64,000 nucleotides of DNA, from the NCBI GenBank assembly GCA_040877935.1, contig JBBDNB010000043.1:90109-154108 (forward strand), read 5' to 3'. The notes beneath the pieces are model-generated. The model had not been told where the DNA came from. It made no database searches and saw nothing but the letters and a program-made list of their open reading frames with translations. Both the position numbers and the translations under genes were made by a program. Positions 17,248-39,609 of the stretch are shown piece by piece. Numbering within the stretch: the first letter of the stretch is position 1; each line of letters starts with the position of its first letter. Origin of the DNA: Chitinophagales bacterium (GTDB taxonomy: Bacteria > Bacteroidota > Bacteroidia > Chitinophagales > CAIOSU01).

Positions 17248-17571
17248 GTGCTAAAAGTTCTATCAGCCATATTATCCATTTACTTCCTGGCGCTATCTGT
17301 GGTGCCTTGTGCCGATGGCGTTGACTGTGCGGAAGTACAGGTATATCAGGAAATGCTGGCGGAACATGATCATTCTGGTCATGATCACCCGGCCGGTGAG
17401 GATCTTTGCACTCCTTTTTGTGCTTGCCAGTGTTGCCATACCAGTATTACTGTAAGTGCCTTTTTTGCTTTGAGTGAGTCGCCAAGGATGCACGCACAAC
17501 TCACATCCTTCTATTCAGAACATCCTTATTCTACTTATCCGGCTCCTCTGCTGGATCCGCCCCAGGTTTAA
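17248..17571 (+). CDS. DUF6660-like small His/Cys-rich head protein of the first RND operon
   Basis: 107 residues from GTG at 17248 (read as MLKVLSAILSIYFLALS), giving a clean signal peptide; the frame continues upstream but has no signal peptide and runs through the promoter. The mature part holds PCADGVDCAE, HDHSGHDHP and CTPFCACQCCH, a dense Cys/His set able to bind metal. It ends in DPPQV. Proteins of the DUF6660 type sit at the head of metal-efflux operons in Bacteroidota. Its stop codon lies inside a perfect inverted repeat that reaches to the next gene. Confidence 0.72.
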   Translation: MLKVLSAILSIYFLALSVVPCADGVDCAEVQVYQEMLAEHDHSGHDHPAGEDLCTPFCACQCCHTSITVSAFFALSESPRMHAQLTSFYSEHPYSTYPAPLLDPPQV

Positions 17572-17629
17572 TTCAACAAATACTTAGAGGACTCTCGTCC
17601 TCACCAACCATTTTATTGTTGAATTAAAC
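17566..17629 (+). promoter_or_regulatory. nested stem-loop linking head gene stop to RND start
   Basis: A 14-bp perfect outer stem, GTTTAATTCAACAA (17566-17579) with TTGTTGAATTAAAC (17616-17629), encloses an inner hairpin GAGGAC-TCTC-GTCCTC (17587-17602). The left arm contains the head gene's last codon and stop; the right arm ends 9 nt before the RND start. There is no T-run, so it is not an ordinary terminator. Confidence 0.8.
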
Positions 17630-17638
17630 TTTAATTTC

Positions 17639-20600
17639 ATGATTGATAAAATCATTGCTTTTTCCGTAAGGAACAAGTTCATTATCGGTCTGCTCACCCT
17701 GGTTCTTATTGGTGCCGGCATCTGGAGCATGACCAAAGTACCCATTGATGCCGTACCGGATATCACCAACAATCAGGTACAGGTTATCACCCAGGCGCCA
17801 AATCTCGGAACAGAGGATATTGAGCAGTTTGTAACCTATCCGGTGGAGGTTGCTATGGCCAACTTACCGGGAGTCATAGAGATTCGTTCTGTATCCCGCT
17901 TCGGGCTTTCAGTGGTAACCATTGTTTTTAAAGACGATATGGGCACCTACCTGCCGCGCCAGCTTGTGAGCGAAAAACTACAGGCGGTAGAAGAGGAAAT
18001 ACCGGAAGGCTTTGGCGATCCTTCCATGGGTCCTATTTCCACCGGCCTCGGTGAAATCTACCAGTACACCCTTCAGGTAGATGAGGCCTATGAAGACCAA
18101 TATTCCGCCACAGATTTGCGCACCATGCAGGATTGGATTGTACGCAGACAAATGGCTATGGTGCCGGGAGTTGTGGAGGTCAATGCTTTTGGAGGAAAAA
18201 TAAAACAGTACGAAGTTGCCGTTGATCCCGATGAACTCAGGGCCATCGACCTTACTATAACCGATGTTTTTGTGGCCCTGCAGCGAAACAACCAGAATAC
18301 GGGTGGTGCCTATATAGAAAAGAACCACTACGCCAACTTTATCCGCGGGGAAGGCCTCGTCCGTAGTCTTGACGACTTGCGGGATATCGTAGTGAAAACG
18401 TTGGACGGAGTGCCTATCCGCATCAAGGATATTGCTGAAGTGCAGTTTGGAAATGCTGTGCGCTACGGAGCTTTTACCAAAGATGGTAAGGGTGAGGCGG
18501 TGGGAGGCATGATCCTGATGCTCAAAGGCGCCAATTCCAACGAAGTGATAGAGGAGGTGAAGGAGCGGGTGGCACAGATCCAGGGATCTCTTCCCGATGG
18601 TGTTACAATCGAACCCTTTCTTGACCGCAGCGAACTTATTGCCGAAACCACCGGCACCGTTACCGGCAATCTGTTGGAAGGCGCTCTGATCGTAATTTTT
18701 GTGCTGGTGTTCCTGTTGGGCAACTGGCGCGGTGGACTTATTGTGGCTTCTACCATTCCGCTGTCGCTGCTTTTCGCCTTTATCCTGATGCATGTGTTTG
18801 GCGTATGGGCCAACCTGATGAGCCTCGGAGCCATCGACTTCGGGATAATTGTAGATGGTGCCGTGATAATTGTGGAAGGTACTGTGTTCTTCCTGGTTCA
18901 GAAGATGGGAATAGGTAAAAAGCGCTTCACTCAGCAAGAGCGTGATGAAACGACCATTAAGGCTTCTTCCAAAATGATGAACTCTGCATTTTTTGGCCAG
19001 CTTATCATTTTGATCGTGTTTCTGCCCATTCTCTTTCTTGAAGGTGTAGAAGGCAAAATGTTCCAACCGATGGCGCTCACCTTCATGTTTGCCATGATCG
19101 GTGCCATGATACTATGCCTCACTTATGTACCGATGATTTCCGCCCTGTTTATCAGGGTAAAACCGGAAGAGAAGAAGTCGTGGGGAGATCGTATTGTTAT
19201 TTGGCTGGAAGAAAAATATGAGCGGGCTTTGGGAGGCACCCTTCGAAAAGCGGGCCTGGTCATAGGTTCGGCTGTAGTATTATTGATACTTGCCGTATTT
19301 ACGTTTACCCGAATGGGTGGCGAATTTATTCCACAATTGGACGAGGGTGACATTGCTTTTCACATTATCCTGAAGCCGGGAAGTTCCCTTTCCGAAAGCA
19401 TCGAAACTTCCACCCGGATTGAAAAGATCATTCTGGAAGACTTCCCCGAAGTGCAACACGCCATGACGCGTTTTGGAGTGGCCGATGTCCCCACCGATCC
19501 CATGCCTATGGATATTGGAGACTGCTTCCTGATTCTCAAACCGCAGGATGAGTGGGTTTCGGCAGACACTAAAGAAGAGCTGATAATTAAAATTAAAGAA
19601 GCACTAAGTATCGTTCCTGGGGTAAACTATGAATTTACCCAACCCATTGAAATGCGCTTTAATGAACTACTCACCGGTGTACGTGAGGATATCGCGATAA
19701 AACTTTATGGTGAAGACCTGCAGGTATTGGCCGATAAAGCCGAAGAAATGGGTCAAATTATTTCCACTGTAGAGGGTGTAGGCGATATGCGCGTGGAAGC
19801 TACCAGCGGCCTGCCTCAAATGACGGTAAAATATGATCGTGCCGACCTGGCCCAATATGGCCTGAATATCTCAAGCGTAAATCAAGTGATTCAATCTGCC
19901 TTTGCGGGTGGAAAAGCCGGGGTGATCTTTGAGGGTGAGAAAAGATTTGACCTGGTGGTTCGCCTTGATTCAGCACATCGCAGCAATATTGATGACCTGA
20001 AGAATCTTTACGTGAATACTCCAACTGGTGCGCAAATACCCTTGAATGAGGTAGCCGACATCAGCTACGAACCCGGCCCGATGCAGATCAGCCGCGACAA
20101 TACCAATCGCAGGACTTATGTGGGGGTAAATGTGCGTGGCCGTGACGTTAAATCATTGGTGGAAGAAATCCAGCAGAAGCTGAACGCTCAACTTGATCTT
20201 CCGGCCGGATACTACATCCGCTACGGGGGAGCTTTTGAAAACCTGGAACGCGCTACAAATCGGTTACAGATAGTGGTTCCCCTGGCGCTGGCACTGATAT
20301 TCATCCTGATTTTCTTCGCTCTTAGGAGCTTCAAACAAAGTATCATGATCTATATGGCTATCCCCCTCGCTGCCATTGGTGGGGTATTCGCCCTATGGTT
20401 GAGGGACATGCCTTTTAGCATTTCTGCAGGTGTTGGGTTTATTGTGCTTTTTGGGGTGGCCGTACTCAACGGATTGGTACTTATCAGTGGCTGGAATGAA
20501 CTTAAAGAAGAAGGGGAAATGGATTTAAGTAAAAGGATCAAAGACGGAGCAAGACGAAGGGTGCGACCAATTTTACTAACTGCACTCACAGATATTCTTG

Positions 20601-21988
20601 GCTTCCTTCCCATGGCACTTTCAGTATCAGCAGGAGCAGAAGTACAACGTCCATTGGCCACTGTAGTGATCGGGGGAATGATTACTGCTACCCTTTTAAC
20701 ATTGTTCGTATTGCCCATACTTTATCGCTGGACAGAAAAAAGATCACTCAATCCTTCCGGTGCGGGTATAGCCACAGTTGTTGTAATTCTGGGCTTCACT
20801 GTATTTGCGCCAACTACTGTCAGTGCTCAGAATGCGGGAGAACTTCCCGAAATATCCATGGAAGAAGCTGTAAACCGTGCGGTGTCTTCTTACCCCACAT
20901 TACAAGCAGCCCGCCTTGAAATAGAACAACAAGAGGCATTGAAGAAAACCGCCTGGGATTTTGGAAATACTCAACTATTTACTGGTGGGGAAGAAATAGG
21001 TGATGGTACAGGGGTTTACACCACCATTGGCATACAGCAGCAACAAATGGACATCTTTGGTATTGCCCCAAAACTGAAAGCCCGGAAAAGTCAGGTGGCT
21101 CTTGCAGAAGCTGCACTAAATCTGAGCAAATTGGAATTGCAGCAAAAGGTGAAAGAGGCTTATGCCAACGCATGGATCGCCCGGCAGAATTACCAGCTAT
21201 ATCAAAGGCTGGATTCCATTTATCAGAATTTTCAGCGAGGTGCCAGGCTCAGATACGAGGTTGAGGAAACTTCTAAGCTCGCCTTTTTGGCGGCTTCGAA
21301 CCAGGTGAAACAAATGACCTTGCAAAAGGAGCAGGCCGCTTTTGATTATCAAACATCTCTCTACAAGCTCAACCTTTGGTTAGTGAACGACTCCGTGTTT
21401 ACAGTAGTGGATTCACAATCCGAAAATTGGGCAAACTCCATTCTGCCGCCTGATTCGCTCAGCTCTCACCCCAGGCTAAGTATGGCAGCCCAACAGGTGG
21501 AGGTGGCTAATGCCGAACGCAAAGCCGCTAATACCGACTTCCTTCCCAAATTGAATGCACAATACGGCATTCAGGAAATTAGTGGGCAAAGTGGTTTTTA
21601 TCAATACCAGGTAGGGCTCACCATTCCTTTATTATTTTTTATGAAGGAACAAGGGCGGGCTCAGGCTGCCCGTATTGAGCAGGAAATAGCTGAGCAAAAC
21701 CTGAGGCAAACCCAATTTGAGCTGAGGGCTGAATACCTTTCACTATTGCAAGAGTATGAAAAATGGCAGGCTTCATGGCTGTTCTACGAACAGGAAGCTT
21801 TACCCCTGGCCCGCGAACAGCGCAAAGGGGCAATTTTAGCTTATGAAGAAGGAGGTATCGATTACGTATCCTTTATTCAAAACCTAAAGGAAAGCCTGCA
21901 GGTGGAAGTAAAAGCACGGGAAGCATTGCAAGAGTATCTGCAAGCCCGTTTCCAATTGGAATATTACCTCAATTCATCAAACCAGTAA
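17639..21988 (+). CDS. heavy-metal RND pump (CzcA/CusA type) fused to a TolC-like outer-membrane domain
   Basis: 1449 residues. Residues ~1-1035 are a full HME-RND pump: VPIDAVPDITNNQVQV at the start, large periplasmic loops and 12 membrane helices. TM4 carries DFGIIVDGAVIIVE, the signature of divalent-cation (Zn/Co/Cd/Ni) pumps. Residues ~1041-1063 form a hydrophobic segment ending VSA-Q1064, like a signal peptide. Residues 1064-1449 are a TolC/CzcC-type outer-membrane efflux protein with coiled-coil helices (RLEIEQQEALKKTAWDFGN...). The fused half is as long as the separate TolC of the second operon (394 aa). The adaptor gene starts 11 nt downstream. Confidence 0.9.
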   Translation: MIDKIIAFSVRNKFIIGLLTLVLIGAGIWSMTKVPIDAVPDITNNQVQVITQAPNLGTEDIEQFVTYPVEVAMANLPGVIEIRSVSRFGLSVVTIVFKDDMGTYLPRQLVSEKLQAVEEEIPEGFGDPSMGPISTGLGEIYQYTLQVDEAYEDQYSATDLRTMQDWIVRRQMAMVPGVVEVNAFGGKIKQYEVAVDPDELRAIDLTITDVFVALQRNNQNTGGAYIEKNHYANFIRGEGLVRSLDDLRDIVVKTLDGVPIRIKDIAEVQFGNAVRYGAFTKDGKGEAVGGMILMLKGANSNEVIEEVKERVAQIQGSLPDGVTIEPFLDRSELIAETTGTVTGNLLEGALIVIFVLVFLLGNWRGGLIVASTIPLSLLFAFILMHVFGVWANLMSLGAIDFGIIVDGAVIIVEGTVFFLVQKMGIGKKRFTQQERDETTIKASSKMMNSAFFGQLIILIVFLPILFLEGVEGKMFQPMALTFMFAMIGAMILCLTYVPMISALFIRVKPEEKKSWGDRIVIWLEEKYERALGGTLRKAGLVIGSAVVLLILAVFTFTRMGGEFIPQLDEGDIAFHIILKPGSSLSESIETSTRIEKIILEDFPEVQHAMTRFGVADVPTDPMPMDIGDCFLILKPQDEWVSADTKEELIIKIKEALSIVPGVNYEFTQPIEMRFNELLTGVREDIAIKLYGEDLQVLADKAEEMGQIISTVEGVGDMRVEATSGLPQMTVKYDRADLAQYGLNISSVNQVIQSAFAGGKAGVIFEGEKRFDLVVRLDSAHRSNIDDLKNLYVNTPTGAQIPLNEVADISYEPGPMQISRDNTNRRTYVGVNVRGRDVKSLVEEIQQKLNAQLDLPAGYYIRYGGAFENLERATNRLQIVVPLALALIFILIFFALRSFKQSIMIYMAIPLAAIGGVFALWLRDMPFSISAGVGFIVLFGVAVLNGLVLISGWNELKEEGEMDLSKRIKDGARRRVRPILLTALTDILGFLPMALSVSAGAEVQRPLATVVIGGMITATLLTLFVLPILYRWTEKRSLNPSGAGIATVVVILGFTVFAPTTVSAQNAGELPEISMEEAVNRAVSSYPTLQAARLEIEQQEALKKTAWDFGNTQLFTGGEEIGDGTGVYTTIGIQQQQMDIFGIAPKLKARKSQVALAEAALNLSKLELQQKVKEAYANAWIARQNYQLYQRLDSIYQNFQRGARLRYEVEETSKLAFLAASNQVKQMTLQKEQAAFDYQTSLYKLNLWLVNDSVFTVVDSQSENWANSILPPDSLSSHPRLSMAAQQVEVANAERKAANTDFLPKLNAQYGIQEISGQSGFYQYQVGLTIPLLFFMKEQGRAQAARIEQEIAEQNLRQTQFELRAEYLSLLQEYEKWQASWLFYEQEALPLAREQRKGAILAYEEGGIDYVSFIQNLKESLQVEVKAREALQEYLQARFQLEYYLNSSNQ

Positions 21989-25239: not shown

Positions 25240-28200
25240 TCATTTGGTCACCAACCGATAAACACAAGGTATCACCACTAAATTCAAAATGGTGGCTGAT
25301 AACAAACCACCTAGAATTACTACGGCCATGGGACTTTGAATCTCACTGCCCGGCTCACCACCTTTCATAGCCAATGGAATTAGGGCTAATCCGGTAGTGA
25401 AGGCCGTCATCAGGATTGGGTTCAGTCGGTCTAAAACACCTTCCTGAATTAAAGCCAATCCTTGTTTGCCTTCTTTTCGCAAATCTTCATATCGGGAAAC
25501 AAGCAAAATTCCATTCCGTGTGGCAATACCGAACAAACTAATAAAACCAATGGTAGCAGCAATACTGATAATCCCGGAGGTGAAGTACACAATCAGAATT
25601 CCACCAATTAACGCCAGAGGCAGATTGATCAAGACCACAAAAGCCAGTTTCACGTCTTTAAACTCAAAGTAGAGTAGCAGGAATATGATCAGAATTGCGA
25701 TAACGGCAGTAATCAAGAGTAATTGTGAAGCCTTTGCTTCACTCTCAAATTGCCCACCATATTCCACACGGTAGCCTTCAGGTATTTCAATACTGCTAGT
25801 AATGGTCTCCTGAATCTCATTGACCGCACTTCTCAAATCCCTTCCCTGTACATTGGCCGCTACTACAATCTTACGCTGTACATCTTCCCTGCTTATCTTA
25901 TTCGGGCTGCTCACTGAAGATACCGTGGCCAGCTGGTCAATAGTAGTATAGCCTCCATTAGGCAAGCTCACCAGGGTCGTTTTGATGCGCTCAATATTGC
26001 TCCTGAACTCTTCCTGATAACGCACTATTAGGTCAAAGTACTTTTGCCCTTCATAAATCTCACCGGCTTCCTCTCCTGCAAATGCAATGTCCACCTGTTC
26101 CATGAGGTCGCCAACCGTCATCCCAAAAGCCGATAACATTTCACGTTTTGGTTTGATCCTAATTTGCGGCACTTCAATTTGCTGGGCAACCGCTACATCG
26201 GCCAGTCCTTGAATTGGTTTAATATCCGTTTCTATTTTTTTGCCCACTTCATAAAGGCGTTGCAGATCAGGCCCGAAAATTTTTATAGCAATATTGGCTC
26301 GTGTCCCGGAAAGCATGTGGTCAATCCGGTGAGCTATTGGTTGTCCCAATGTAATGTTTACTCCCGGCACAATGCTGAGTTTTTTTCTCACTTCTTCAAA
26401 AAACGCCTCTTTGCTTTTGTCTTCGAGGGTAAAAGGCACATCAATCTCGGCCGCATTTACGCCCTGGGCATGTTCGTCCAGTTCGGCACGTCCCGTCCTG
26501 CGGGTGACCACCTCTACTTCAGGCATTTCTAATAATTGTTGCTCTATCAGCTTCCCCACTTTATTGCTTTCTTCCAACGACATTCCGGGAGGGCCGACCG
26601 CACTGATGACAAGCGAGCCTTCATTGAATTCCGGTAAAAAGCTTCTTCCCAATTGAGTAAGCAGCCCCATACTTGATAAAAAGGTAATTACTGTAACCGT
26701 AATTATGGTTTTCGGAAATTTTAAAGTGCCACCCAATAGCCTTGAATAATGTTTTCGAAGCCATCTTTCAACTCTGGTTCCTTCGGCATTTTTGCTCAAT
26801 ACTTTTTCTCTTTTCAATAAATAAGAGCAGAGAACTGGTGTCACAGTAACAGCCACCACCAAAGAAGTAAGTACCGAGGTTACAAAAGCAATTCCCAATG
26901 GTTTCAATAACCGTCCTTCCATACCACTTAGGAAGAACAAAGGCACAAACGATACTATGATGATCAATGTAGCGATGATGATGGAACTCCTGATTTCTAC
27001 AGAAGCATCTTTTACCACTGTTAATACAGGGAGTCGTTCGCTTTTGGGCTTTCTGATATTTTCCCGTAAGCGTTTATAAACATTCTCTACATCTATAATT
27101 GCATCATCCACCAAAGTGCCAATAGCAATGGCCATCCCCCCCAGGCTCATGGTATTGATGGTGTAGCCTAATAATTTTAGCACGATAATAGATACCAGCA
27201 GGGAAATTGGTATGGCCAGCAAAGAGATCAGTGTGGTGCGCCAATTCATCAGGAAAATAAATAAGACAATGACCACAAAAAACGTACCCTCCAGCAGGGT
27301 TTGGTTGAGGTTGCTGATGGAGGCTTCTATAAAATCGGATTGCCTGAAAATATGGCTTTTAATCTCAACCCCTTCCGGTAGTGTTTGTCCTAATTCAGCA
27401 ATGGCTTCATCCAATCGGCCGGTCAAATCCAGTGTGTTTACGTCTGGTTGTTTGGAGATTGTCAGTATGACCGCAGGTGAGGCATTCAGTGAACCGTCAC
27501 CAATCTTATCGGACGCACCAATCTGCACAGTGGCCACATCTTTAATTTTAATGCTTTGGCCGTTAAGCTGTTTTACCACAGCTTCCTGCAATTCTCCCAC
27601 TGCATAAGCCCTGCCGCTGCCCTTGATGATGTATTGGTTTCCGTGTTCATTGAAAAAACCTCCGGGGGCATTTACGTTGGCTTCTTTTACTTTTTCCACC
27701 AACTCACTAAGACTTACATTATAGTGTTTGAGCTTTTCCGGATGGGCAAACACCTGATATTGTTTATAATCACCACCAATAACAATTACGTTGGCAATTC
27801 CTCCAATGGCTTTTAACCTAGGCCTAATTGTCCAGTCAGAAATCGTTCGCAATTTCATGGGCGACAAGCTGTCGGATGTAACCCCCAAAAGCATAATCTC
27901 TCCCATAATTGAGGAAATGGGCGCCATTGTGGGCGCACCGATACCACTCGGAAGGTTTTCACGTACCATTGGGATGCGTTCACTCACAATTTGCCGCGCC
28001 CTGTAAATATCCGTTCCCCAATCAAACTCTACCCATACAATGGAAATACCTGCCGCTGAGGATGAACGGATTCTCCTTACATTCGGAGAGCCGTTGAGTG
28101 CTGTCTCCAACTGATAGGTTACCAGTTTCTCCACTTCTTCTGACTCCAAACCATGTGCCTCTGTTAGGATAGTTACAGTAGGTGCCGTAAGGTCAGGAAA

Positions 28201-28314
28201 AACATCCACATTCATTGTACGTGCCAAAAACAAACCTGCCACACTCAGCACTACTGCACCCAATAAGACCAAAAGCCTGTTTTGAAGTGATATTGATAAT
28301 ATCTTATTTAGCAT
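25240..28314 (-). CDS. heavy-metal RND pump (CusA/CzcA type) of the second operon
   Basis: 1024 residues, full length. VDVFPDLTAPTVTILTEA near the start, FDWGTDIYRARQIVSERI in the first porter loop, and 12 helices. TM4 reads LGGMAIAIGTLVDDAIIDVEN, without the DFG..DGA signature of divalent pumps and closer to the CusA-like monovalent (Cu/Ag) group; this substrate guess is tentative. It works with the adaptor (13 nt upstream), the separate TolC and probably the His-rich lipoprotein of the same operon. It is the last gene of the unit and converges on the pseudogene block. Confidence 0.9.
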   Translation of the reverse strand: MLNKILSISLQNRLLVLLGAVVLSVAGLFLARTMNVDVFPDLTAPTVTILTEAHGLESEEVEKLVTYQLETALNGSPNVRRIRSSSAAGISIVWVEFDWGTDIYRARQIVSERIPMVRENLPSGIGAPTMAPISSIMGEIMLLGVTSDSLSPMKLRTISDWTIRPRLKAIGGIANVIVIGGDYKQYQVFAHPEKLKHYNVSLSELVEKVKEANVNAPGGFFNEHGNQYIIKGSGRAYAVGELQEAVVKQLNGQSIKIKDVATVQIGASDKIGDGSLNASPAVILTISKQPDVNTLDLTGRLDEAIAELGQTLPEGVEIKSHIFRQSDFIEASISNLNQTLLEGTFFVVIVLFIFLMNWRTTLISLLAIPISLLVSIIVLKLLGYTINTMSLGGMAIAIGTLVDDAIIDVENVYKRLRENIRKPKSERLPVLTVVKDASVEIRSSIIIATLIIIVSFVPLFFLSGMEGRLLKPLGIAFVTSVLTSLVVAVTVTPVLCSYLLKREKVLSKNAEGTRVERWLRKHYSRLLGGTLKFPKTIITVTVITFLSSMGLLTQLGRSFLPEFNEGSLVISAVGPPGMSLEESNKVGKLIEQQLLEMPEVEVVTRRTGRAELDEHAQGVNAAEIDVPFTLEDKSKEAFFEEVRKKLSIVPGVNITLGQPIAHRIDHMLSGTRANIAIKIFGPDLQRLYEVGKKIETDIKPIQGLADVAVAQQIEVPQIRIKPKREMLSAFGMTVGDLMEQVDIAFAGEEAGEIYEGQKYFDLIVRYQEEFRSNIERIKTTLVSLPNGGYTTIDQLATVSSVSSPNKISREDVQRKIVVAANVQGRDLRSAVNEIQETITSSIEIPEGYRVEYGGQFESEAKASQLLLITAVIAILIIFLLLYFEFKDVKLAFVVLINLPLALIGGILIVYFTSGIISIAATIGFISLFGIATRNGILLVSRYEDLRKEGKQGLALIQEGVLDRLNPILMTAFTTGLALIPLAMKGGEPGSEIQSPMAVVILGGLLSATILNLVVIPCVYRLVTK

Positions 28315-28326
28315 ATCATTTCCATT

Positions 28327-29838
28327 TTAATGTTCATGACCATGAGCCGGTGTTGTTCCTGACATGGAGGCCATTTTTACTTGGTAAGCACCCTTTGTCA
28401 CGACCACTTCTCCCGCTTCAAGTCCATCCTTCACTTCTACATACTCACCATTTCTTCTCCCGATTTTTACAGGGCGTCTTTCAAAACTTTCTCCAGATAG
28501 TTGGATGATTACCGAGAAGCTTCCATAATCTTCCAAAAGGGATGCCTCGGGAACCAGTAAGCCTTGTCTTGGCTCACCATAGGCAATTTGCACTTCCGTA
28601 TAACTGCCTTCGGGCATAGAAATTTCCTCCGAAACCTCAACATAAATCGGAAGCATCGGCTTTGCAGGCTCCACTGCCTTCCCAAACGAAAGGACAGACC
28701 CACCGGCAGAACCTATGCTCGACCATTGATCGTTTAGCTTTTTGTAATGAATATTTTGAATCGTCTGCAAATCGGCAGCATAAGCGGCACTGACTTGTGC
28801 TTCCAATAAGCTTGGAGGATGGGTTACCAAGGTCAACAATGGAGTGCCTTGATTTACAAAATCACCATTTATTACATCGATTGATTTAATGTAACCGTCA
28901 TAAGGAGCTGTAATTTGTTTACCACTTAAGGAAAAGCCTGATTTCAAAGTTTCATAATTTGATTTGGCCACTTTGTATTTGCTTTCCACCTGTTCCATTT
29001 CTGCTTTAGGTACAATCTTGGATTCGTGGAGCTGCTTTTTACGCTCGTATTCCGCTTTAGCCTGTTCAAAATTGGCCTTGGCTTGCTCAATCTCACTTTG
29101 TAAATTATTGGAAGTAAGCCCTTTACTACTTATGGTCATCAGAGGTTGCCCTTGCTTTATTCTTGTACCTGCGGTGAGGTTTTTCATGGTAAAACTTGCT
29201 ATACCATTGGCAGTGGCGGAAAGTGACCGCACATTAACGGGTGAAGCCTTCCAAATCCCCGAGGTTTTGATGACATCATAGATCTCACCGGAAATGACAG
29301 GAGCTGTCTGGAAATCAATCTTCCAGGCTTGTTCTTTTAGAAAGCTAATAGCCCCTCCATTTTCCTCCTTACTTCCAAGAGATTTTGTAGCCTCCTCCGT
29401 ATTTGCAAATACCCGAATATCATTTATGACAATTCTATCCTGATAACCAGGAGTTGTTAAATCAAAGATCAACTGGTAAGTACCGGCAGCCTTAGGTTGC
29501 AGGGAAGGAGAAAAAATACCCGGTGAAGAAGGAGCTTCTACTGTGTGCCTAATCCCTTTTCCATCTTTGACCAAACTCACGGTTACATTGCCTTCCCTTA
29601 TGGGTTGATGCTTATCCAGCACAGTAAAGTGAGCGGCAAAGCGGCTGGTTTCATTCACTACCAAAGCCGGGAATTCTACAAATAATTCTGTTTTATCTGT
29701 CCATCGGGTATAGTCCACAGCCGGTATATCGCTGCCTTCGTTGATATGGCCACCCTCCGCATCGTGGGCGTGACCGTTCTCTTGTGCTGACTGACAAGAT
29801 GCCATCAGTACAGCCATTAATACTATTATATATCGCAT
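28327..29838 (-). CDS. RND periplasmic adaptor lipoprotein of the second operon
   Basis: 503 residues. Lipoprotein signal (VLMASCQS), a short His-rich stretch (HAHDAEGGHINEG), an additional N-terminal beta-domain (~residues 40-140, WTDKTELFVEFPALV) that is absent from the first operon's adaptor, then the usual hairpin, lipoyl and barrel domains (ITAPYDGYIKSIDVINGDFV), ending with GHEH. The extra domain resembles the N-terminal domain seen in large CusB-like adaptors of Bacteroidota. It should bridge pump and TolC and may take metal from the His-rich lipoprotein encoded 24 nt upstream. Confidence 0.88.
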   Translation of the reverse strand: MRYIIVLMAVLMASCQSAQENGHAHDAEGGHINEGSDIPAVDYTRWTDKTELFVEFPALVVNETSRFAAHFTVLDKHQPIREGNVTVSLVKDGKGIRHTVEAPSSPGIFSPSLQPKAAGTYQLIFDLTTPGYQDRIVINDIRVFANTEEATKSLGSKEENGGAISFLKEQAWKIDFQTAPVISGEIYDVIKTSGIWKASPVNVRSLSATANGIASFTMKNLTAGTRIKQGQPLMTISSKGLTSNNLQSEIEQAKANFEQAKAEYERKKQLHESKIVPKAEMEQVESKYKVAKSNYETLKSGFSLSGKQITAPYDGYIKSIDVINGDFVNQGTPLLTLVTHPPSLLEAQVSAAYAADLQTIQNIHYKKLNDQWSSIGSAGGSVLSFGKAVEPAKPMLPIYVEVSEEISMPEGSYTEVQIAYGEPRQGLLVPEASLLEDYGSFSVIIQLSGESFERRPVKIGRRNGEYVEVKDGLEAGEVVVTKGAYQVKMASMSGTTPAHGHEH

Positions 29839-29862
29839 TACTATATAGTTTTTTTTAAAAAA

Positions 29863-30120
29863 TTAATGCTCATGGTGTTCACTTCCATCTTCATGCACGT
29901 GTGTTGAGTCGGATTTCATTTCGGTTGAATCTCCTGAAACCCTAAACTCTTCCTGTTCATGGTGATGATCTCCATTCTCATGATCATGGCCATGTTCTTC
30001 AACTTGGTGAATGTGTGTTTCACTGCCGTGCTCGTGTCCGTGGTCATCCTGTTTTCCACCTGAATTACATCCGAAAGTGAATGCTAAGGCCGCTATAAAA
30101 AGACTTACTTTGAATTTCAT
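29863..30120 (-). CDS. small His-rich lipoprotein
   Basis: 85 residues. Lipoprotein signal with Cys18 (ALAFTFGC), and a mature part of ~67 residues, of which about a quarter are His and many others Asp/Glu. His pairs and triplets repeat (HGHEHGSETHIHQ, HGHDHENGDHHHEQ). No fold or family is evident; it is probably disordered and metal-binding. It lies between tolC and the adaptor gene, 20 nt after the first, so it is co-expressed with the pump. A periplasmic metal buffer or chaperone feeding the adaptor is the natural guess. Confidence 0.78.
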   Translation of the reverse strand: MKFKVSLFIAALAFTFGCNSGGKQDDHGHEHGSETHIHQVEEHGHDHENGDHHHEQEEFRVSGDSTEMKSDSTHVHEDGSEHHEH

Positions 30121-30140: not shown

Positions 30141-31325
30141 TTACAATTGATGTTTTAATAATTCCGCCCTGAGTTGCCGGAGTTCCTTCTCAATTTCCAG
30201 CATCCGGTTTTCCGCTTCGCGGTAAAAGGTAACTTCGCGGTAATAGTCCATAAAGGAAATCTCACCCAGTTCATAGGAACTTTTAAGAAGAACTTCGCTG
30301 TTCAACCCGGACAGTGCTACTTCGTATTCTCTAAATTTTTTAAGCAACAGTTGATAGCGTTGTACCTGCGATGAAAACTCACTTTTCAAAGAGGTAATCA
30401 CATCAGATTGGCGCTGATCGCGGTAGTTGATTTGCGCTTCTGCCATCTTTACTTTACTGCGGCCGCTCCAAAGCGGAATACTGATACCACCATAAAAACC
30501 CGAGTAATTGTTTCCGGCCACCCCCTGCTGGTTGTAACCGGCTGTAATGTCCGGCAAAAGCTGATTTCGCTCTACTTTCAAGCGTTGCTCAGCCACTTGT
30601 TTTTCCCGTTCTAAAAGGGAGATTTGCGCATCTCTTATTAACCGTTCATTCCAAAGGCTGTCAGGAACAGGAATTTCCATGTTGTTGGGGTAAGAATTTA
30701 ACTGAAGCCTGACTTCGTTTCCACCATTCAGAGCTTTTAATTCTTGTTTTACATTCGTCTCGCGGGTATTCAGTTCTTCCAGTGCAAACTGTTGATCCAG
30801 CCAAATGATTCTGGCTTTATTCCTGTCAAGAATACCGCTCTGGCCTTTTTCAAACAAGGTTTCTACCTGCTCATACACCTTTTTGGATTGGGTTACCCGC
30901 TCCTGAACCAACTCGCGCTGCTTTTGCAGGTAAACCCATTCCACCCCAAGCTTTTTCGCCTTCAGGAGAATGTCCTGTTTTAGCTTTTGATATTCCTGTT
31001 CCAGTCGCTCTTGCTGCTCGTCTATCCAGTTGCCTCTGCTGGTGTATACGGTGGGAAATTCTATGCGTTGTGAGATTTGAAATTCACTGTAATTGCCTGT
31101 AGTGTGCTCACCAAAAGGAAGATAAAAAGCATCAGCCTGCGGATCGGGAAGCCTGTTTTGCGATTTATACTGCCAATTTTCACCTTCCATATAGCTTCGG
31201 TAGGCTGCAAGTGATTTGTTGTTGGCTTCTACAGTTTGCAATACTTCCTCTAAAGTCGAGTATTGCGCCTTTACGGCACTTACGCATAGGGTAAGTGCCA
31301 GCACGAGAAAAAATGATTTATGCAT
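30141..31325 (-). CDS. TolC/CzcC-family outer-membrane efflux protein
   Basis: 394 residues, signal peptide (ends near VKAQ), and two similar long helical halves with TolC-type repeats (LEEVLQTVEANNKSLAAYRS..., LIRDAQISLLEREKQVAEQRL...). It forms the trimeric outer-membrane channel for the second RND pump. It is second in the operon, with its start 10 nt after a large inverted repeat that begins inside the head gene's end. The counterpart in the first operon is fused to the pump. Confidence 0.88.
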   Translation of the reverse strand: MHKSFFLVLALTLCVSAVKAQYSTLEEVLQTVEANNKSLAAYRSYMEGENWQYKSQNRLPDPQADAFYLPFGEHTTGNYSEFQISQRIEFPTVYTSRGNWIDEQQERLEQEYQKLKQDILLKAKKLGVEWVYLQKQRELVQERVTQSKKVYEQVETLFEKGQSGILDRNKARIIWLDQQFALEELNTRETNVKQELKALNGGNEVRLQLNSYPNNMEIPVPDSLWNERLIRDAQISLLEREKQVAEQRLKVERNQLLPDITAGYNQQGVAGNNYSGFYGGISIPLWSGRSKVKMAEAQINYRDQRQSDVITSLKSEFSSQVQRYQLLLKKFREYEVALSGLNSEVLLKSSYELGEISFMDYYREVTFYREAENRMLEIEKELRQLRAELLKHQL

Positions 31326-31335
31326 AAATGAATTT

Positions 31336-31402
31336 CTTTAGGTTAAAATGAGAAATGCTCCCTCATAGCAGGGAGCCATTAATTCTTCGGTTTAACCTAA
31401 AG
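31336..31402 (-). promoter_or_regulatory. nested stem-loop linking head gene stop to tolC start
   Basis: A 12-bp perfect outer stem, CTTTAGGTTAAA (31402-31391) with TTTAACCTAAAG (31347-31336), encloses an inner hairpin GCTCCCT/AGGGAGC (31376-31357, 6-nt loop). The left arm contains the head gene's final codons and stop; the right arm ends 10 nt before the tolC ATG. Same plan as the element at 17566-17629, with unrelated sequence. Confidence 0.8.
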
Positions 31403-31853
31403 CAGGAGGGGCGCGGAGGCCATGCGAGGCAAAAAGCTGCTGATCGGCAAGAGGCCGGATAAATGCATATTGGTGGTAGCTACTTTCGTTCAGCTGATCC
31501 GGGAGTCTCCAATGATGTGCTGCCGGATATTGAACAACAAAATCACTCTGAGGGATTAATTTATCTTTTGAGGCAGCACGATAAGCTAGCTCATGTTGAT
31601 GCCCATCAAAATCGGAATGGCTGTGTGCGTGGATTAGCTGATTGTCCCATGGACTACTTTCTGAAGACTCAGGTGGTTTGTCCTGCTGGTGATCTTTATC
31701 ATGCGAATGATTCCCATGATGCTGATGGGCTTCAGAAACAGTTTGATCTGCTCCCTGATGATTGTGATGCGTATGGGGAATGAAATCATGCAGCAACAGG
31801 AGCGCGTAAGCACTCAGCAAAAACAAAGACAATATGTTGCGATAGGATTTCAC
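31392..31853 (-). CDS. small His-rich exported head protein of the second RND operon
   Basis: 153 residues from GTG at 31853 (read as MKSYRNILSLFLLSAYALLLLH), a good signal peptide or signal anchor. The frame extends to a TTG at 31895, but that stretch covers the promoter. The mature part is very His-rich (HTHHNHQGADQ, HQHHGNHSHDKDHQQD, HAHSHSDFDGHQHE) and ends RAPPALG. It resembles the head gene at 14729 in its first 40 residues (FIPHTHHNH versus LIPHCHELH). Likely a periplasmic metal-binding protein or metal-responsive leader for the operon. Confidence 0.7.
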   Translation of the reverse strand: MKSYRNILSLFLLSAYALLLLHDFIPHTHHNHQGADQTVSEAHQHHGNHSHDKDHQQDKPPESSESSPWDNQLIHAHSHSDFDGHQHELAYRAASKDKLIPQSDFVVQYPAAHHWRLPDQLNESSYHQYAFIRPLADQQLFASHGLRAPPALG

Positions 31854-37663: not shown

Positions 37664-37683
37664 AAGTGATTAAAAAATCACTT
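37664..37683 (-). terminator. terminator overlapping the end of the propeller protein gene
   Basis: AAGTGATT pairs with AATCACTT around a 4-nt loop, followed on the minus strand by TTTATC. It begins inside the last codons of the gene. Confidence 0.6.
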
Positions 37684-39462
37684 CTTAATAACCTTAATGA
37701 TTTCAGTATTTTGCCCGTCTATTTTAAGCTGGATAAAATAAATGCCGGACTCTTCATCTATTTCATGTTCAATTAGATCAGTGTTGGTATGTGATTCTTC
37801 TGCAATTACCTGACCTATGCTGTTTTGCACTTCTATTTTCACAAAATCCTTTCTGCTTCCAAGATCAATTTTAATATGCCCCTCAGTTGGATTGGGAAAT
37901 AATTTAAGGTCATTGAAAGAAGATGTTTCTGCAATGCTCACAATATTTACATTATAGCAGTCAGATACACTACTGCATGAGTTTTCAGTAATGATTACTG
38001 CATAATTTCCGTTTTCGGCAGGAGTAAAACTTTGCTGTACCGCCCCGCTTACAGGAGCATTTTCATTGTCGCAATCTACCCATTGATAGCTTGCTCCAGC
38101 CAGATCTGCACTAAGTGTATTGTTGCTTTGCTGTACAGAAACATCAACCGTACAAGCCGCTGTGTCTATTTTTACCAGCCAAAAATCAAAACCGCCTTTG
38201 TTTCCCGTGAGATCAATATCACCGGATTCTGAAACACCGGCCAAAAGATACTTTCCATCAGTTGTTTGAATAATTTCAGAGGAACCGTCATAAAGGGTTC
38301 CTCCATAATTTTGCTTCCATTCAATATTGCCGTTGGCATCCAACTTCAATAACCAACTGTCATACGCTCCATAATTCCCCGAAAAGTCATTGTCATTTGA
38401 TTCCGTGTCTCCGGCTACCAGGTAGCCGCCATCTTGGGTTTGCAAAACAGAATAAACTTCATCATATCCACTGCCCCCAAAGTTTTGTTCCCATTCCAGG
38501 TTGCCATTTGCATCTAATTTAATTACCCAATAATCGTAATCACCATAATTATTAGAAACATCTTGGTCACTGGATTCTGAGGAGCCACCAACAATATAAC
38601 CGCCATCTGATGTTTGTGTTATGGAAAAAACCTCATCTTCCCAACTGCCGCCATAGTTTTGCCCCCACTCTACATTTCCACTGCTGTCTAATTTTAAAAC
38701 CAGGAAGTCAAAATCACCGTTGTTATCCGGAGCATCAAAATCCTGGGAATCTGAATGACCTGCCAATACGTAGCCACCATCCATTGTTGGCTTCATGGAA
38801 GCAGCCGTTTCGTCTCCTGTGCCGCCATAATTTTGCTCCCATTCTATACCACCGTTTGCATCTAATTTCAGTACCCAGAAATCATCCCAGTCGTAAATAT
38901 TCGAAACATCATTATCAAAGGAGCTGGTATATCCGGCTACGATATAGCTACTGTCAGTCGATTGCAAAACAGAAGCTGCATAATCATCATCGCTTCCACC
39001 GTAGTTTTGCTCCCATTCAATATTGCCATTGGCATCCAATTTTAATATCCAGTAATCAAACCAGCCATAATTGCCTGAAACATCAAAATCACTGGACTCT
39101 GATGAACCGGCTACTACATAGCCACCATCAAAAGTTTGATGAACAGAGCTTGCAAAATCATCTCCGCTTCCCCCGTAATTTTGTTCCCATTCTATATTGC
39201 CATTAACATCTGTTTTCAGTATCCAGTAGTCAACACCACCGTTGTTGCCTGAAATATCCTGATCGCTGGATTCAGAACCACCAACCATAATATAGCCGCC
39301 ATCTGTTGTTTGCTGAATTGAACTGACAAAATCATCATTGCTGCCTCCGTAATTTTTTTGCCATTCGATACTTTGTGCCGAAACAGAAAATGCAGCTAAT
39401 AAAATGCTGAAAAGTAAAAACAGCAAGGATGGTGGAGCGATAGTGGTTTTTAGAGCGTTCAT
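37678..39462 (-). CDS. secreted seven-repeat beta-propeller-like protein with T9SS type A tail
   Basis: 594 residues. Signal peptide (ends near VSAQ), then seven tandem copies of a ~58-residue unit with the pattern EWxQNYGG...D(E/D)xxxSxxQTxDGGYxxAGxSES.D.D...G..DYWxLKLDANGN. Seven blades suggest a closed beta-propeller. A Cys-containing linker domain (CTVDVSVQQSNNTL) and an ~85-residue T9SS type A sorting domain (LFPNPTEGHIKIDL) follow. It is surface-exposed or secreted; ligand unknown. It is the first-named gene of the block inserted between trmD and rplS. Confidence 0.82.
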   Translation of the reverse strand: MNALKTTIAPPSLLFLLFSILLAAFSVSAQSIEWQKNYGGSNDDFVSSIQQTTDGGYIMVGGSESSDQDISGNNGGVDYWILKTDVNGNIEWEQNYGGSGDDFASSVHQTFDGGYVVAGSSESSDFDVSGNYGWFDYWILKLDANGNIEWEQNYGGSDDDYAASVLQSTDSSYIVAGYTSSFDNDVSNIYDWDDFWVLKLDANGGIEWEQNYGGTGDETAASMKPTMDGGYVLAGHSDSQDFDAPDNNGDFDFLVLKLDSSGNVEWGQNYGGSWEDEVFSITQTSDGGYIVGGSSESSDQDVSNNYGDYDYWVIKLDANGNLEWEQNFGGSGYDEVYSVLQTQDGGYLVAGDTESNDNDFSGNYGAYDSWLLKLDANGNIEWKQNYGGTLYDGSSEIIQTTDGKYLLAGVSESGDIDLTGNKGGFDFWLVKIDTAACTVDVSVQQSNNTLSADLAGASYQWVDCDNENAPVSGAVQQSFTPAENGNYAVIITENSCSSVSDCYNVNIVSIAETSSFNDLKLFPNPTEGHIKIDLGSRKDFVKIEVQNSIGQVIAEESHTNTDLIEHEIDEESGIYFIQLKIDGQNTEIIKVIKK

Positions 39463-39609
39463 GTGTTTTTTATGTTAAAATAAAAAAAATAAGTTGTATT
39501 ATTCCTTCAAAGTCATACGATGACTTTGCTTAATAAGCTTACTCCCCCAGATTTACAGTGCCAATATGTATATGAAACCAGTCATCGTATGACTATTTCA
39601 ATCCCTACC

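Follow-up and report, generated by a model that had tools for sequence, protein, structure and literature searches.

The gap between the His-rich head gene and tolC, in the second of two operons in the window (the whole 64,000-nucleotide stretch of Chitinophagales DNA that was analysed), raises the question of why the last codons of one gene should be paired with the start region of the next. The site (31326–31402, minus strand) is enclosed by an outer stem, P1, in which the left arm CTTTAGGTTAAA (31402–31391) and the right arm TTTAACCTAAAG (31347–31336) form 12 Watson–Crick pairs without interruption; the left arm takes in the final codons of the head gene, TTA GGT, together with its stop codon TAA (31394–31392), and 10 nt separate the right arm from the tolC ATG at 31325. 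This is the perfect 12-bp stem that the earlier note had described, and the inner 7-bp G/C hairpin of that description was likewise recovered, at 31376–31357 (GCTCCCT-gctatg-AGGGAGC, minus strand). The predicted RNA fold of the site has an energy of −28.6 kcal/mol (z = −4.9), which was equalled by none of 200 shuffled sequences, and the stem score in the register of the gap (L147) was reached by none of 300. The head gene itself (31392–31853, minus strand) encodes an exported His-rich protein of about 153 aa ending in ...GLRAPPALG-stop; its start was placed by homologue alignment at the GTG at 31853 (VKSYRN), the mechanical ORF extending to 31895, and the protein has no Pfam family above cut-off and no match to DUF6660. 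Downstream lies tolC (30141–31325, minus strand), encoding an outer-membrane efflux protein of 394 aa (PF02321) whose start region is predicted to be masked by P1, and the remainder of the operon (25240–30120, minus strand) comprises a small ORF (29863–30120), a HlyD-type fusion protein (28327–29838) and an RND pump of the ACR_tran type (25240–28314). It is true, as had been claimed, that the other gaps of this operon hold no similar stem, but this is a weak argument because those gaps measure merely 12–24 nt. A reading of the site as a repeat or mobile element was rejected, no second copy of the sequence being present in the genome.

The sister site lies on the plus strand, in operon 1. Here the head gene (17248–17571) encodes a protein of about 107 aa, counted from a GTG at 17248, that scores 51.3 bits against DUF6660 (PF20365; curated cut-off 27) and is thus a member of that family, with a Cys/His cluster followed by the C-terminal end ...LLDPPQV-stop. 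The left arm of its P1, AGGTTTAATTCAACAA (17564–17579), contains the stop codon (17569–17571), the inner hairpin GAGGAC-tctc-GTCCTC occupies 17587–17602, and the right arm (17616–17631) ends 7 nt before the ATG of czcA at 17639, with a 14-bp Watson–Crick core that ends 9 nt before it. The product of czcA (17639–21988) is an RND pump of 1449 aa with a fused OEP domain, and the start region of this gene, too, is predicted to be masked by P1. The folding energy of 17564–17631 was −22.8 (z = −5.65), again equalled by none of 200 shuffles. That the two copies are unrelated in sequence was broadly right, with the reservation that a covariance model built from tolC-type gaps alone returned the operon 1 site as its next independent match in the window, at E = 0.035; the same model gave no other convincing match in the genome.

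What the earlier note, which had caught the RNA plan, missed was a feature of the proteins, namely a proline motif at the C-terminal end, close to the stop codon (RAPP in operon 2, DPP in operon 1). The RAPP codons CGC GCC CCT CCT (31404–31415, minus strand), a putative ribosome-arrest motif, stand three codons before the stop, the same position as in CruR, and in the head gene of operon 1 the PP codons, CCG CCC (17557–17562, plus strand), are a putative pause site. In both head genes the motif is encoded just beside the left arm, and it is this arrangement that suggests a mechanism.

The genome background was assessed by scoring, in co-directional gaps of 40–200 nt, the helix that takes in the stop codon of the first gene and finishes close to the start of the second. 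Within 417 kb of the organism's own genome the two sites took ranks 1 (16.4) and 2 (13.2) of 77 gaps, the next score being 10.8 and the median 6.0, and a PP within the last eight residues was found in 2 of 334 predicted proteins, exactly the two head genes (LRAPPALG and LLDPPQV); these counts of gaps and proteins are approximate because the gene calls are simple open frames. Three other Bacteroidota genomes supplied 107 gaps, two of which reach a score of 10.8. Neither shuffled sequences nor ordinary gaps, then, yield the paired layout, although it had been proposed that randomization at equal composition might do so often. An ordinary-looking gap in one genome (L196:5307–5837, G722) has a 14-bp stop-to-start stem that overlaps the start codon, behind a gene ending in IDFYLE, and is possibly another coupled pair. 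Neither site matched an Rfam family at the gathering score, sub-threshold matches being confined to other positions.

Homologues of the operon 1 arrangement were collected in a scan of reference genomes, which yielded 80 loci with a closely similar CzcA, 79 of them usable. At 63 of the 79, czcA is preceded by a gene whose product terminates a few residues after PP; the motif is QPP in 52 of these 63 heads, and in 52 of them PP stands exactly two residues before the stop. Between such heads and czcA there were 61 distinct gaps (median stem score 10.8), and a stop-anchored stem was present at a shuffle P≤0.05 in 52 and at P≤0.01 in 44. Among nine measured gaps lacking a recognized PP head a stem was seen in one (L126), where the upstream ORF has RGPP further inside, and no stem was found where another gene closely precedes czcA with a gap of 3–12 nt (L116, L118, L120, L123 and L130). 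The most common P1 arms are TTAATTCAGTT / AACTGAATTAA, others being TATAATGAAT / ATTCATTATA, GTGTAATCTA / TAGATTACAC and TTGGTTTAACATT / GATGTTAAACCAA. Over the homologous gaps measured, P1 was not found in L060, L164, L165 and L168 and is imperfect in L074, L105 and L132. A hydrophobic N-terminal segment is present in all 63 heads of this type and is visible in the family of the operon 2 head as well. The last Cys lies 40–45 residues before PP in 54 of the 59 Cys-containing heads (41 in the window head), a spacing that is steady despite head ORF lengths ranging from about 100 to 175 aa. At four DUF6660 loci (L040, L045, L048 and L057) the reading frame suggests that czcA starts with GTG, so that automatic ATG-based calls would set the start too late, and the fold shows a stop-anchored stem upstream. 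In the Flavobacteriia the inner hairpin AGGATAgctaTATCCT is well conserved in gaps of this type (L066, L068, L082, L087 and others) and seems to be more than a mere spacer.

The same class also holds a third, sequence-distinct family of heads before czcA, of the form HYG...HENLPF...QPPxxx-stop (L134–L137, L140 and L141). In L134–L136 the czcA ATG itself is part of the right arm, and the ATG is inside the element in L158 too. These loci bear on one alternative, in which the nested stem would be cut by an RNase or act as a barrier and so fix how much head mRNA there is relative to pump mRNA. Long helices between the genes of an operon do often function in mRNA processing or stability; such an element, however, needs neither a stop codon within it, nor a near-constant distance to the next start, nor a stem that takes in the start codon, and we regard it as very improbable here.

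Relatives of the His-rich head were sought by direct and profile searches, the profile finding them in 23 of 395 genomes of the class, the organism's own included. Alignment of four such heads revealed a shared N-terminal hydrophobic segment, invariant histidines and the ending R-[AG]-P-P-x-L-G-stop, and little else. Within 15 residues of the stop, R[AG]PP was present in 21 of 24 readable relatives (that of the window included), in a protein with an unconserved middle; the remaining three have KAPP, RGSP and neither of these, respectively. The gene that follows encodes, in about half of the cases, a protein of 394–412 aa with a TolC-like start, and in the others a CzcA-type or a different protein. 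Most of these gaps contain a stop-anchored stem, which usually ends 9–10 nt before the ATG and has arms such as TCTTTGGGAT / ATCCCAAAGA, TTGGGATAAATC / GATTTATCCTAA, GTTTCCTGAA / TTCAGGAAAC and AATATTTTCTTGTTAA / TTAACAAGAAAATATT. Two relatives (L165 and L166), one of which ends in RGPP, precede a protein of 217–218 aa (MENKKYIPALGYDFLSKYYD...) without a clear stem, and may have a different target or mechanism. Close tolC homologues alone were dropped as a route of comparison, being too divergent or in a different gene order. Most homologous gaps across the Bacteroidota thus carry the stop-anchored stem, contrary to the outcome that would have spoken against it, and the suggestion that the two operons of the window share one plan was supported by these homologues as well as by the two top ranks in the genome.

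Compensatory changes within the stem fall on synonymous codon positions. The Gly codon next to the stop has its third base paired in 10 of the 11 tolC-type gaps that were aligned, as UA (5), AU (4) or CG (1), and the wobble base of the Leu codon occurs in AU, GC and GU pairs. The covariation score of the 11 gaps was 0.183, against 0.087 ± 0.019 in shuffles, none of 500 of which reached it, and sliding of the partner lowered the score. In a further locus (L151, 1401–1512, minus strand) a change of frame alters the translation of the left-arm DNA TTTAGGTTAAT, giving RGPPV-stop instead of RGPPSLG-stop, with DNA and pairing kept. From the compensatory changes at synonymous positions and this change of frame it appears that the pairing, and not the peptide alone, is under selection. 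The signal in the larger operon 1 alignment is weaker, with changes on both sides in 12 cells against 5.8 expected and a small excess of paired cells (79.3 vs 77.0% in shuffles), and the covariation score is just as high after a slide by +1; relatedness among the sequences could account for part of the covariation signal. In A/T-rich gaps stems can arise by chance, and a few ordinary gaps do score similarly, so that a fortuitous stem or a palindrome at the DNA level without a role in RNA has to be considered. The two highest ranks among 77 gaps, the recurrence in 52 of 61 homologous gaps and the matched synonymous changes nevertheless make such an origin scarcely credible.

How might the stem and the proline motif act together? 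Bacteroidota do without Shine–Dalgarno sites, and structure between about −20 and +20 tunes initiation in F. johnsoniae (PMC6847099), so that a helix near the start codon would provide a natural off state. Our working hypothesis, which we hold to be probable, is that head gene and gap together form a cis-acting translational switch of the CutF/CruR type, in which the nascent chain controls the pump gene; we infer the arrest, the sensing of metal and its sign, and the translational level of control. A ribosome making the exported metal-binding head protein would pause at the C-terminal PP, which belongs to RAPP in operon 2 and to DPP in operon 1. When the first Pro codon had reached the P site, the leading edge of the ribosome, at about +15, would cover codons of the left arm, and P1 would open, leaving the pump gene's initiation region (−25 to −9) free; once the ribosome had finished and left, P1 would re-form and the start would be shut again. 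How long the pause lasts would depend on metal bound to the exported portion of the nascent chain. For an efflux pump the sensible sign would be that metal lengthens the pause and so raises the amount of pump, as has been reported for CutF.

A leading edge at about +15 covers 9 of 12 left-arm positions in operon 2 and 9 of 16 in operon 1. The footprint was modelled by forcing the first 16 nt from the first Pro codon to be unpaired, at six sites (the two operons and four homologues), and in all six the predicted pairing of the −25 to −9 region dropped, from 0.72–0.89 to 0.32–0.48; the mean pairing probability changed from 0.76 to 0.32 in operon 2 and from 0.89 to 0.48 in operon 1, where, as a point against the model, seven A/U-rich pairs of P1 persist under the footprint. 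In CruR the two Pro codons occupy the P and A sites of the arrested ribosome, and a fusion assay in E. coli showed no stalling by the CutF tail on its own; the QPP/DPP tail of the DUF6660 heads is, on its sequence, a candidate rather than a proven arrest motif.

When considering such a switch it is necessary to ask at which level it would operate. A ribosome stalled on the head gene could instead decide between continuation of RNA polymerase and its termination, with or without Rho, as in CruR or TnaC, P1 and the inner hairpins being the terminator or pausing part. CruR does work through Rho-dependent termination that RAPP arrest prevents, and the inner hairpin of operon 2 has a terminator-like score on both strands. 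The T tract of that call is broken, however, and shuffles yield 0.9 ± 1.2 such sites, for which reasons an intrinsic terminator in the gap was considered weak; the inner hairpin of operon 1 is followed by ACCAACCATTTT, with no T run, and most homologous inner hairpins also lack one. Moreover, the gaps are A/T-rich with 20–22% C, a composition not obviously suited to Rho loading, and the conserved part is the outer helix beside the start codon. We therefore think transcriptional control unlikely. Plain translational coupling, in which P1 keeps the pump shut unless the head is translated, head and pump are made together and the head serves as a periplasmic metal buffer or chaperone with neither arrest nor sensing, would account for the anchoring of P1 on the stop codon in every family, since a terminating ribosome likewise covers the stop codon and the left arm. 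It leaves unexplained, though, a PP that hardly varies, two to four residues ahead of the stop, in proteins that evolve fast, as well as the RAPP/RGPP motif of family 2 and the 40–45 residue spacing from Cys to PP, and it seems to us a rather improbable account. We accordingly retain translational control by a pausing nascent chain as the preferred reading, and in this bacterium and many other Bacteroidota head gene and stem together look like a metal-responsive switch that is built into the operon and does without a separate regulator.

Elsewhere in the window, the gap before the gene at 37678–39462 (minus strand) contains an inverted repeat (39511–39594) whose 15-bp arm AGTCATACGATGACT lies 54 nt from its partner. 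Each arm is itself nearly palindromic, and for this reason the repeat may be a pair of operator sites.

If our hypothesis is correct, the metal-efflux pumps of Bacteroidota have a fast sensor that requires no regulator and reads extracytoplasmic metal while the leader is being synthesized, and such a switch can operate without a Shine–Dalgarno site. It would also suggest a function for DUF6660, of which no mention was found in the literature searched, and for the unnamed His-rich family, the RNA partner lying outside all Rfam families, and would offer a testable arrest-peptide system in Flavobacterium-type bacteria. Separate protein families would then have reached one plan. We would give roughly even chances to the wider proposition that several unrelated families of sensor leaders (DUF6660, His-rich R[AG]PP and HYG/HENLPF) each use C-terminal PP arrest and a stop-anchored mask, so that widespread nascent-chain metal switches control heavy-metal RND pumps across a phylum lacking Shine–Dalgarno sites, with two types in one genome.

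Among known systems, SecM-secA and similar monitors resemble the proposed switch in that a ribosome stalled on an upstream ORF opens a stem hiding the next start, yet they monitor protein export and not metal. Upstream ORFs of Bacteroidota with Pro at the C-terminal end are alike in the position of the Pro residues but precede sec genes instead of metal pumps. The RAPP/RGPP arrest peptides (PMC12992588; PMC10951233) are small exported proteins with R[AG]PP near the C-terminus, encoded upstream of their target gene; the same motif occurs in the head of operon 2 and in the majority of its relatives, with export judged from sequence and arrest putative, and whereas a survey of such peptides is reported to have found the copper-related class missing from Bacteroidota, the His-rich R[AG]PP heads described here stand before tolC- and czcA-type genes. 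CruR of Bordetella pertussis (DUF2946; PMC9426467) is likewise an exported metal-binding leader before a metal-related gene, and its RAPP stands three residues from the C-terminus, as in the operon 2 head; in contrast to the conserved stop-to-start stem before efflux genes found here, CruR acts through Rho-dependent termination, and copper turns an importer off.

The closest likeness is with CutF-cutO of Rhodobacter capsulatus (PMC9973294), where, by the main text of that report, a small exported metal-binding head protein with a C-terminal Pro motif precedes an intergenic stem-loop that masks the start of the next gene, and a metal-homeostasis gene follows. The distance from metal site to Pro motif is reported as 45 residues for CutF and CruR, against 40–45 in most DUF6660-type heads. 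Held against the rules given there for CutF-like proteins, both window heads have PP in the last 15 residues (RAPPALG and DPPQV) and a same-strand next gene within 1,000 nt (gaps of 66 and 67 nt); the limit of <150 aa compares with about 107 aa for the operon 1 head and about 153 aa, from the likely GTG, for that of operon 2, and, with regard to the Sec signal peptide, a hydrophobic N-terminal stretch was seen in heads of both types. A stem-loop over the next start region, as in the CutF model, is present by prediction and conservation, and metal-dependent stalling that raises downstream translation is, by analogy, putative here. The protein side was partly anticipated, since the CutF-like list of those authors already covers Bacteroidota and counts OEP/ACR_tran neighbours; the main text describes no Bacteroidota RNA element, and no earlier description appears to exist of the stop-anchored RNA partner or of the R[AG]PP heads of Bacteroidota. 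The differences from CutF, as that text presents it, are that neither head studied here has a Pfam match to DUF2946, the CruR/CutF family, operon 1 belonging to DUF6660 and operon 2 to no family; that there is no Shine–Dalgarno site to hide, P1 being anchored on the stop codon itself; and that the downstream gene is there an oxidase and here a pump gene, preceded in operon 2 by a His-rich R[AG]PP head.
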